Shown here: piece after piece, positions 20,127-46,486 of the stretch
Numbering within the stretch: the first letter of the stretch is position 1
Layout: each line of letters begins with the position of its first letter
NCBI RefSeq assembly: GCF_004000605.1
Contig: NZ_CP018911.1
Coordinates: 1,798,001-1,862,000 of the forward strand
Reading direction: 5' to 3'
Source of the DNA: Glycocaulis alkaliphilus
Lineage (GTDB): Bacteria > Pseudomonadota > Alphaproteobacteria > Caulobacterales > Maricaulaceae
DNA length: 64,000 bases
The notes under the pieces: generated by a model
Told to the model about the DNA's origin: nothing
Seen by the model: the letters and a program-made list of their open reading frames with translations, nothing else
Databases searched by the model: none
Made by a program: the position numbers and the translations under genes

Positions 20127-20141
20127 GAACAGGCATAGAAC
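20127..20141 (+). promoter_or_regulatory. LexA (SOS) box in front of lexA
   Basis: GAAC-AGGCATA-GAAC, an exact match to the alphaproteobacterial direct-repeat SOS box GAAC-N7-GAAC. It lies 53 bases before the lexA ATG, as expected for autoregulation. Confidence 0.85.
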
Positions 20142-20194: not shown

Positions 20195-20866
20195 ATGCTG
20201 ACCCGCAAACAACACGAGCTTCTGCTCTTCATTCACAAGCGCCTCTCTGAAGACGGCGTTTCCCCGTCCTTTGACGAGATGAAGGAAGCGCTTCAGCTGG
20301 CTTCAAAGTCCGGTGTTCACCGCCTCGTCAGCGCGCTGGAGGAGCGTGGCTTCATTCGGCGTCTGGCCCACCGGGCCCGGGCGCTCGAAGTGCTCAAGCT
20401 CCCGGATGCCTCCGCACCGCGCGCAAGCGCCGCAGATAATGTCGTCAGCGGCAATTTTGCCCGCCGTGAAGTCGAGACGGATTCGGTGGATGTGCCGCTT
20501 CTGGGCAAGATCGCGGCTGGTGTGCCCATCGAAGCCATCCAGCACGAAACCGAGCGTTTCGGCGTGCCGTCCCAAATGGTCTCGTCGGGTGAACATTTCG
20601 CGCTCGAGGTCGAGGGCGATTCCATGATCGAGGCCGGTATTCTGGATGGCGATTACGTCATTATCCGGCGCGGAGACACGGCCAATAATGGCGAGATTGT
20701 CGTTGCGCTGGTGGATAATGAGGAAGCCACGCTCAAGCGCATCCGCCGCAAGGGCGGGTCGATTGCTCTTGAAGCGGCCAACCCGGCCTATGAGACCCGT
20801 ATTTTCGGGCCCGACCGGGTGCAGGTTCAGGGTCGTCTGGTGGGGCTGATCCGCCGCTATCACTGA
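20195..20866 (+). CDS. lexA: SOS repressor LexA
   Basis: Transcriptional repressor of the SOS response, 223 residues. The N-terminal winged helix-turn-helix (about 1-65) starts [17 protein letters not shown]. The C-terminal autoprotease has the self-cleavage site A108-G109 (KIAAGVP), Ser143 (EGDSMIEAG) and Lys181 (ATLKRI). ATG at 20195 gives the family N-terminus; the upstream in-frame ATG at 20147 is too close to the SOS box. The longer alphaproteobacterial linker (about 68-98) is present. Tail-to-tail with comEC. Confidence 0.97.
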
Positions 20867-40710: not shown

Positions 40711-44169
<3,459 letters not shown>

Positions 44170-44251: not shown

Positions 44252-44344
44252 CTACCCTATGAGCGCCGTGCTCCATGTCAGCACAACGGCAACGAACCCG
44301 AGCGTAACAAAGGCGGTGCTGGCCTCTTCGATCAAGCGCTTCAT
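44252..44344 (-). CDS. 30-residue single-pass membrane peptide behind tandem SOS boxes (SidA-like in style)
   Basis: A short ORF seen by reading the dnaE upstream gap. Its ATG at 44344 follows CAGGAGTTCTCAC, a strong Shine-Dalgarno at normal spacing, and it ends with TAG at 44252. The peptide starts MKRLIEEAS, then has an uninterrupted hydrophobic stretch (about residues 10-29, with Trp24) that would form one membrane helix; the N-terminal side is charged. Two near-consensus LexA boxes lie in its promoter region. The size, topology and SOS control resemble Caulobacter SidA, a 29-residue SOS-induced inner-membrane division inhibitor. Homology is not established, since I cannot compare sequences. 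Expression and function are inference. Confidence 0.65.
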   Translation of the reverse strand: MKRLIEEASTAFVTLGFVAVVLTWSTALIG

Positions 44345-44371
44345 GTGAGAACTCCTGTTGAAAATTGCGAT

Positions 44372-44386
44372 ATTCCCTGTTTGTTC
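44372..44386 (-). promoter_or_regulatory. LexA-like box 2 upstream of the 30-residue ORF
   Basis: On the minus strand GAAC-AAACAGG-GAAT, seven of eight conserved positions of GAAC-N7-GAAC. It lies 28 bases before the ORF start, near the expected transcription start. Confidence 0.6.
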
Positions 44387-44391
44387 CACTT

Positions 44392-44420
44392 GAAGTATTC
44401 GCTTTTTGTTCCGCCGTCAA
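44392..44420 (-). promoter_or_regulatory. Candidate promoter of the 30-residue ORF
   Basis: On the minus strand: -35 TTGACG (44420-44415), 17-base spacer, weak -10 TACTTC (44397-44392). LexA-like box 1 sits in the spacer, where a bound repressor would block RNA polymerase. Confidence 0.5.
44397..44411 (-). promoter_or_regulatory. LexA-like box 1 upstream of the 30-residue ORF
   Basis: On the minus strand GAAC-AAAAAGC-GAAT, seven of eight conserved positions, 10 bases from box 2. Both boxes share the GAACAAA...GAAT form. Confidence 0.6.
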
Positions 44421-44487: not shown

Positions 44488-45168
44488 TCAGGCCGCGACG
44501 ACGCGGCCATTCTCCAGCGTGACGACCCTGTCCATCCGCGCGGCCAATGCGAGATTGTGGGTGGCGACCAGCGCCGCTGCGCCCGCCTCACGGCACGCCG
44601 CCGCCAGCGCGTCAAACACCTGATCGGAGGTCGCCGGATCGAGATTGCCGGTCGGCTCATCGGCCAGCACCACACGCGGTTCGCCCACCAGCGCGCGCGC
44701 GATGGCGACACGCTGCTGCTCCCCGCCGGAAAGCTGCGCCGGCAGATGGGTCAGCCGGGCGCCAAGCCCCAGCTTTGTCAGCCAGTCACGCGCCTTGGCG
44801 CGCGCCTTCGCCTTGCTCTCGCCTGCGATCAGGCGCGGCAGGGCGACATTATCGAGCGCATCAAGCTCAGGTAGCAAATGGTGGAATTGATAGACAAAAC
44901 CGACTTCGCGGCGACGCAGCGCGGTGCGGCCGCGCTCGTTCAGCGCGAGGCCGTCAATACCCGCAACATGCACCGAACCGGCATTGGGCTTTTCCAAAAG
45001 CGCGGCCGCGTGCAGGAGCGAGGACTTGCCGGAGCCCGAAGGGCCAACAAGGCCGACCAGCTCGCCAGGCATCAGGTCGAGATCGGCCCCGCTGAGCACC
45101 TCGATCAACTCGGCATCGGTCTGGTACTGGCGCACCAGGCCGCGAATGGAAAGGGCCGGATCACTCAT
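44488..45168 (-). CDS. lolD: Lipoprotein-releasing ABC transporter ATPase
   Basis: ATPase of the Lol system that extracts lipoproteins from the inner membrane. 226 residues. Walker [11 protein letters not shown], signature [15 protein letters not shown], Walker [14 protein letters not shown], switch His in VATHN. ATG at 45168 overlaps the end of lolC by eight bases. The longer reading through lolC is rejected. The gap after its stop leads into the promoter of the 30-residue ORF. Confidence 0.95.
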
Positions 45169-46486
45169 AGCGCAGCGCCTCCACCGGATCGATCCGCCCT
45201 GCCCGCCAGGAGGGCGGCAGCGTGGCAATCAGCGCGGTCGCAAAACCCCACACGGCCACGAACGCCACTTCAGCCCAGTCCAGCCGCGCAGGCAGGCGGT
45301 AAAGCAGATAGACGGACGGATCGAACACATCGACGCCCGTCACGAACGCCAGGAAATCCTGTATCGGGCCGATAAACACGGCGATCAGCACGCCCAGAAT
45401 GATGCCCGCAATGGTGCCCAACACGCCGATGGCCGCGCCGGAGATGAGGAAAACGCGCATTACCGCGCCTTGCGTCGCGCCCATCGTGCGCAGAATGGCG
45501 ATATCGCGGCTCTTGTTCTTCACCAGCATGACGAGGCCGGAAATGATGTTCATCGCCGCAATCAGTACGATGATGGAGAGGATCATGCGCATCGCCATGC
45601 GCTCCACCTGCAGCGCGGTCCAGAAGGACTGGTTCTGCCGGCGCCAGTCAAACACGGCGGTGCCGGGAGGCACGAGCTGGCGCACAGCCTCCACCACCGC
45701 CTCAGGCGCATCGGGATTGGTCACGCGTATATCGATATAATCAGCGCCGCCCGATCGCCCGAAGAACAAAGCGGCCTGCTCCAGCGGCATGAAGACATAG
45801 ATCCGGTCGAGATCGAGAACACCCATGGAAACAACACCGTCCACGACATAGTTTTTGCGGCGCGGCACTGTGCCCATGGGCGTAGACGCACCCTGCGGTG
45901 CCAGCAGTGTAACCGTGTCGCCTGCACTGACGCCCAGCTGCGCGGCGATGCCGGAACCGATCAATATGCCGTCGCCGCCATGATGGCCGACACCGAAGTC
46001 ATCAGCAGACCCTTGCACGATGCCGCCGCCCGCTGCGGCCGCATCGCCTTCACCGGCAATGAGATCGAACTGGCCAAGGTCAGACGGGCGCACGCCAATC
46101 ACCTGCGCCCCGGAAGCGCCGCGCTCCGAGCTGATCAGGGCCTGCGCCGCGATGATCGGTCCGGCCTGGCGCACGCCCGGCACCTGATTGATCCGGTCAA
46201 CCAGATCACCCGTCAGCGCCGCGCTCTCAGCGGTATAGACATAGACATGCGGCTGCACGCCCAGCAGGCGCGACAGCAATTCGTGGCGGAAGCCGTTCAT
46301 GATCGACATGACGGCGATCAAAGCGGTCACCGCCAGCGTGATACCGATAAAGGAAATCACTGATATGAGCGTCACACCGCCATGCTTGCGCCGGGTTCTG
46401 AGGTAACGGAAAGCCAGCAGGAATTCCCAGGCGCTGAACGCGCCTGCGCCTTTGCTATTGCCGGGCTGTGCTTTCGCTGAACTCAT
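45161..46486 (-). CDS. lolC: Lipoprotein-releasing ABC transporter permease (LolC/LolE family)
   Basis: Inner-membrane permease of the Lol system; 441 residues with the FtsX-like four-segment layout: one membrane helix (about 42-62), a large periplasmic domain (about 75-285) and three C-terminal helices. N-terminal signature [20 protein letters not shown]. Only one LolC/E-type gene is present, so the complex may use a single permease type as in many alphaproteobacteria. ATG at 46486 overlaps the proS stop by four bases. Confidence 0.93.

Follow-up and report, generated by a model that had tools for sequence, protein, structure and literature searches.

SidA is already known: in Caulobacter it stops cell division during DNA repair, and among SOS division brakes of Alphaproteobacteria it is the known example of one acting on the late divisome and not on FtsZ. 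SosA of Staphylococcus is located in the membrane. Compared by description only, from the extracts available, SosA and YneA of Bacillus are likewise SOS-induced division inhibitors, found in other phyla, and YneA is described as interacting with FtsW. SulA of Escherichia coli (PF03846) is also an SOS-induced division inhibitor, but acts on FtsZ polymerisation, and DidA of Caulobacter, a small FtsN-binding protein that crosses the membrane once, inhibits division and is induced by DNA damage, differs from the peptide reported here in having 71 residues and in being independent of the SOS response (both according to the sections of PMC4211646 available). The same sections give, for Caulobacter SidA, inhibition of division and two-hybrid contacts with FtsW and FtsN, together with FtsW(A31K) and FtsW(F145L) as suppressors of SidA, the authors favoring an inactive state of FtsW/FtsI/FtsN (PMC4211646); loss of lexA in Caulobacter leads to extreme filamentation that depends on sidA (PMC12700426, available in part). 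No account of SidA outside the Caulobacteraceae, or of a fixed place for it before dnaE, was found in the literature searched, with most subscription papers outside its scope. What is new here is a divergent member in Glycocaulis alkaliphilus, the fixed slot that it occupies, and a hint that the family spans the class, mostly unannotated.

The window, that is, the whole 64-kb stretch of G. alkaliphilus DNA that was analyzed, carries on its minus strand a sidA-like ORF of 30 codons, MKRLIEEASTAFVTLGFVAVVLTWSTALIG (44252..44344; ATG at 44344, TAG stop at 44254-44252), with a CAGGAG ribosome-binding site (44352..44357, minus strand) separated from the ATG by a 7-nt spacer. On the same strand lie TTGACG (44415..44420), by its sequence a likely -35 element, and two putative operators recognized by motif match: LexA box 1, GAACAAAAAGCGAAT (44397..44411), just downstream of TTGACG, and LexA box 2, GAACAAACAGGGAAT (44372..44386), the two having a start-to-start distance of 25 bp. 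The minus-strand order is TTGACG, GAACAAAAAGCGAAT, GAACAAACAGGGAAT, CAGGAG, ATG, TAG and then, after 82 bp, the start at 44169 of dnaE (DNA polymerase III alpha; 40711..44169, minus strand; name read from the translation), the conserved downstream neighbor. Behind the sidA-like ORF stands a LolD-like ABC ATPase (44488..45228, minus strand; name read from the translation alone), as in 21 of the 30 best-scoring loci of the host family, Maricaulaceae. The sequence-only reading had reported the start, the CAGGAG site, the stop, two GAAC-N7-GAAT boxes with TTGACG upstream and a place before dnaE, and all of these are present. A longer in-frame GTG start is available at 44389; relatives conserve the ATG instead, and purine-rich sites also precede the starts at the other host-family loci printed (Maricaulaceae, best-scoring set). 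A promoter scan with a consensus tool gave nothing above threshold at this locus; in 17 of the 30 host-family loci, including all six of the genus, TTGAC precedes the first box at a distance of at most 14 nt.

MKRLIEEASTAFVTLGFVAVVLTWSTALIG has a basic N-terminus (K2, R3), an acidic residue (E7) preceding an uncharged stretch, and one hydrophobic segment, whose best 17-mer reaches a mean Kyte-Doolittle value of 2.05; the charged start and hydrophobic stretch claimed earlier are thus there, the single helix being a reading of hydropathy only. In this it resembles SidA of Caulobacter crescentus (C. vibrioides; NF033228; CCNA_02004), which has 29 residues against 30 here and is likewise built of a short basic head, an acidic residue at position 7 and one hydrophobic segment; LexA boxes shortly before the start, the slot directly before dnaE and a match between group profiles are also shared. 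The two differ in that the window peptide is not recognized by NF033228 and is only 21-24% identical to four Caulobacteraceae peptides, in a tryptophan that is nearly invariant at position 24 in 16 host-family peptides and invariant at position 19 in 14 Caulobacteraceae peptides, and in the boxes, both of which end in GAAT in G. alkaliphilus.

Short ORFs are common, and it is this abundance that speaks for a chance ORF: 357 ATG ORFs of 25-45 aa are present in the window (nested starts being treated as separate), 16 of them with a hydrophobic 17-mer (mean Kyte-Doolittle > 1.5). The combination of a hydrophobic 17-mer with a GGAG/AGGA/GAGG site is found in the sidA-like ORF alone among the 357, its frame has a low pN/pS, and its start, slot and boxes are conserved. 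A chance origin, to which we attach next to no credence, was rejected as contradicted by the conservation data. The peptide is encoded in all six genomes of the genus, the window's own included. Across the 15 genus pairs, differences on codon positions 1, 2 and 3 number 70, 28 and 182, and pN/pS ranges from 0.00 to 0.45, silent sites changing fastest; in the five pairs that include the most distant genome, a plain count gives more amino-acid than silent changes, though a per-site count does not. Among more distant members of the host family the amino acids change considerably (family mean pS 0.67, pN 0.36).

A search with the single sequence gave some match at E <= 10 in 62 of 137 host-family genomes, some of these matches lying outside the dnaE slot. 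With a 16-row profile, a match at E < 1e-3 was obtained in 54 of 60 host-family genomes among the matches listed, the 60 being the genomes listed and not the family total, and 47 genomes without a match not being itemized. At all 30 best-scoring host-family loci the ORF stands before dnaE, behind one or two LexA-like boxes 33-84 bp upstream. When loci were instead chosen by dnaE, from 23 of 26 host-family genomes, boxes were present in 23/23 and the ORF in 22/23 (the exception being L102). The sequence-only reading had named failure of the frame and the boxes to be conserved in close relatives as evidence against itself; since both are conserved there (6/6; 30/30; 22-23/23), it withstood its own test. 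As judged from these sequences, the sidA-like ORF is a real gene.

The boxes before it look like LexA boxes: they are the Caulobacter LexA motif GTTC-N7-GTTC, as given in the part of PMC12700426 available, read on the opposite strand, both of them ending in GAAT, not GAAC. A lone match to GAAC-N7-GAAY is weak evidence; the window holds seven, against a mean of 2.55 in shuffles, and none of 100 shuffles reached at least seven. The fuller pattern GGAACAAANNNNGAAYA has four matches in the 3.02-Mb genome, two of which are the sidA-like pair, and its reversed control has none. With one mismatch allowed, GAACAAAANNNGAAC is matched 12 times across the genome and its reversed control twice. Three of the 12 precede confirmed repair genes, namely recA (PF00154), ssb (PF00436) and mmcB (PF06319); a fourth (L251) stands 2 bp ahead of an ORF taken for imuA, in the first 120 residues of which Pfam found no family; and a fifth (L259) is the sidA-like box 1 itself. 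The ORFs beside the other seven are without family assignment, one of them (in L256) having been searched with no hit. A box, GAACAGGCATAGAAC (20127-20141, plus strand), also stands 53 bp ahead of the ATG of lexA (start of the gene at 20195..20383, plus strand; ATG at 20195; PF01726 DNA-binding domain at 20198-20383; the gene runs on). As a side observation, lexA and the sidA-dnaE pair share the window, about 24 kb apart.

In the Caulobacteraceae, the family of Caulobacter, 17 of 20 dnaE-upstream regions have a short hydrophobic ORF behind boxes, and the other three have boxes and no ORF by the criteria used. A scan of named genomes with 14 peptides of the Caulobacteraceae type confirmed 188 relatives, and the analysis used the best 80; these are labeled Caulobacter (C. 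vibrioides included), Phenylobacterium, Caulobacteraceae or Caulobacterales, together with one Brevundimonas and four labeled only Alphaproteobacteria or bacterium. The ORF stands before dnaE in 78 of the best 80, the other two stretches showing no dnaE, and LexA-like boxes are present in 77. The peptides of these 80 have 29 aa in 73 cases, 30 in five and 26 in two, the TTG start of the last two having been chosen by script, so that their true length may be greater.

All four Caulobacteraceae peptides tried, including the one from C. vibrioides DSM 9893, were matched by NF033228, the NCBIfam equivalog model named 'cell division inhibitor SidA', with scores of 60-72 bits (cut-off 35). In the order to which both the host and Caulobacter belong, 25 of the 200 genomes searched had a match above the cut-off, all of them Caulobacteraceae; in every such genome with a placed dnaE (15/15), it is the ORF upstream of dnaE that matches. 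The position before dnaE is therefore the sidA slot, and the G. alkaliphilus ORF occupies it. The cut-off was not taken as defining the gene, because some slot ORFs of the Caulobacter family itself (e.g. in G202 and G222) also score below it. We take sidA to be CC1927. In the parts of the sources available, dnaE is CC1926 in Caulobacter (PMC1839093, table) and sidA is CCNA_02004 (PMC10769358); a printed statement that sidA adjoins dnaE was not found in the literature searched. In one Caulobacter genome a second match to the SidA model, below the cut-off (G150:C3:315102-315185; E 9.6e-6), lies in a 132-aa frame on a different contig from dnaE, and may be a duplicate or due to chance.

A rival reading makes the boxes an SOS promoter that serves dnaE, and the ORF a leader peptide tuning dnaE translation, or a by-product. 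This would agree with the terminator search, which found no terminator-like site between the sidA-like ORF and dnaE, and with the constancy of the neighborhood (ORF before dnaE in 30/30 host-family loci and in 78 of the best 80 of the Caulobacteraceae type). Against it, the amino-acid sequence is under selection, the distance to dnaE ranges between 18 and 89 bp in the host family and reaches about 300 bp elsewhere, and the slot ORF of the Caulobacteraceae is sidA itself. On these three grounds a role as leader peptide only was rejected, and we regard it as very improbable; co-transcription with dnaE could occur in addition to a sidA role.

The direct link in sequence between the window peptide and SidA is weak, and that between groups is stronger. 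NF033228 matched none of three host-family peptides, the window's included, and had no match at E <= 0.1 in the G. alkaliphilus genome; NCBIfam and Pfam had no match to the window peptide even at E <= 10, and Pfam and NCBIfam searches with two host-family peptides gave nothing. An HMM built from 51 unique Caulobacteraceae peptides gave the window peptide 2.2 bits, a score equaled by 442 of 5000 shuffles that keep the head and membrane parts separate, and gave the best of 35 host-family peptides 8.8 bits, with 13 of 5000 such shuffles as good. When the profiles of the two families were compared with hhalign, host family and Caulobacteraceae aligned without gaps over residues 1-22 from Met1 (E 2.1e-6, 89% probability); none of 60 full column shuffles was as good, nor were more than 1/300 and 0/300, in the two directions, of column shuffles preserving head and membrane parts. 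A profile built on 14 peptides of two other families in the order matched the host family at E 1.1e-6 (0/300 shuffles) and the Caulobacteraceae weakly, at E 0.0015 (5/300 shuffles). Intermediates of a motif are also seen, GFAWMI in members of the host family beside GFVWMM in the Caulobacteraceae. An acidic residue (Asp or Glu) stands directly before 12 uncharged residues in 50 of the 51 unique Caulobacteraceae peptides, in 35/35 of the host family and in 20/21 of the rest, a tally that leaves out one printed host-family peptide and lacks unrelated membrane peptides as a control.

Because the group profiles match and the single peptide does not, orthology is argued from position, operators, architecture and group profile, not from a direct match; on this footing the window peptide is a probable SidA orthologue and very probably a distant cousin of Caulobacter SidA. 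The proposal that it is SidA-like is supported by the dnaE slot, the 30 against 29 residues, the similar build and the profile match. The weak direct match, and the strong differences between slot peptides of different families, would also suit an SOS-induced membrane micropeptide with some other target (e.g. another membrane enzyme) that merely shares the sidA slot. We consider this unlikely, given that start, acidic residue and slot are all common to SidA and that the GFAWMI and GFVWMM intermediates and the group profile connect the families.

The reading preferred here, with a probability of roughly 0.84, is that the ORF is this lineage's sidA, a LexA-repressed gene encoding a 30-residue, single-pass inner-membrane peptide that would halt division after DNA damage. 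By analogy, we infer that the G. alkaliphilus peptide acts as Caulobacter SidA does. On damaged DNA, RecA filaments would trigger self-cleavage of LexA, which would then vacate both boxes, situated between TTGACG and the start codon. The peptide, once made, would insert in the membrane, its short basic N-terminus facing the cytoplasm, and would bind the assembled divisome at FtsW (and FtsN). FtsW/FtsI/FtsN would thereby be held inactive, and septal wall synthesis would stop until LexA returns. The genome encodes lexA, recA and two FtsW/RodA-type proteins, and a search of it for SulA (PF03846) gave no match at E <= 1. The same checkpoint as in Caulobacter is the simplest reading, with induction, membrane insertion, FtsW contact and arrest carried over from that system.

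A class-wide search with the 16-row host-family profile gave no convincing match outside the family, the best other match being partial (E 7.1e-4). As sequence search alone does not reach outside the family, loci were chosen by their position at dnaE, and micro-ORFs were sought by box, length, hydropathy and ribosome site. When boxes of either orientation were counted in 100 dnaE-upstream stretches from other families and orders, a linked hydrophobic micro-ORF with a ribosome site accompanied the box in 40 of the 51 stretches that have one, and such an ORF is present in 1 of the 49 stretches without a box. With boxes reading towards dnaE only, micro-ORFs are found in 40/47 stretches with a box and in 1/53 without; the antisense-strand control gave one such micro-ORF in the 100 stretches.

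For the other alphaproteobacterial orders, 40 loci were picked by hand from 121 matching genomes, a non-random set of mostly good dnaE matches and larger genomes, and 31 of the 40 are without a box. In one box orientation, micro-ORFs are present at 7/7 loci with a box and 1/33 without (Fisher 4e-7). A LexA site can lie either way, and boxes were therefore recounted in both orientations, on which the link weakens (7/9 with a box against 1/31 without; Fisher 1.5e-5). As some loci had been inspected before the criteria were fixed, these p-values are optimistic and serve as a guide; at L163 the ORF picked is probably in the wrong frame, another ORF there fitting better. The sidA slot thus seems to reach other alphaproteobacterial orders.

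Presence is uneven within the order. In family f2 (L150-L161) the ORF before dnaE is missing from all 12 loci; ten have no box, and two (L157, L158) have a good LexA-like box that points the other way. This family has likely lost the checkpoint gene, and the boxes that remain are perhaps a relic operator. Family f4 is mixed, with six loci having both box and ORF, four a box only and eight neither. From these patterns we lean, at a little better than even odds, towards an ancient origin of the slot: throughout the Alphaproteobacteria, the gap before dnaE would be the place of a membrane micropeptide under LexA control, and SidA would be one fast-evolving branch of a DNA-damage checkpoint that spans the class. 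Its members would be mostly missed by annotation pipelines, would be united by the acidic residue at the membrane entry and not by overall sequence, and would have been lost in some lineages, mostly together with the boxes.

With a slot, operators and divergent peptides in hand outside the Caulobacteraceae, where the curated model finds nothing, an ancestral SidA checkpoint in Alphaproteobacteria becomes testable, and so does the minimal conserved feature of such a division inhibitor. Genes of about 30 codons that escape homology search can also be recovered from position combined with operator.

Further LexA-box-like sites were seen in the G. alkaliphilus genome. Three of them (L250, L252, L253) lie near ORFs resembling a reverse transcriptase, a cytosine methyltransferase and YifB/ComM, these names being read from the translations. 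A strong box, GGAACAAAAAGGGAATA (1384062-1384078 of the genome), lies between a glyoxalase-like ORF, for which an NCBIfam search gave nothing, and a thymidylate-synthase-like ORF, both again named by reading; the two flanking ORFs are possible further SOS targets.
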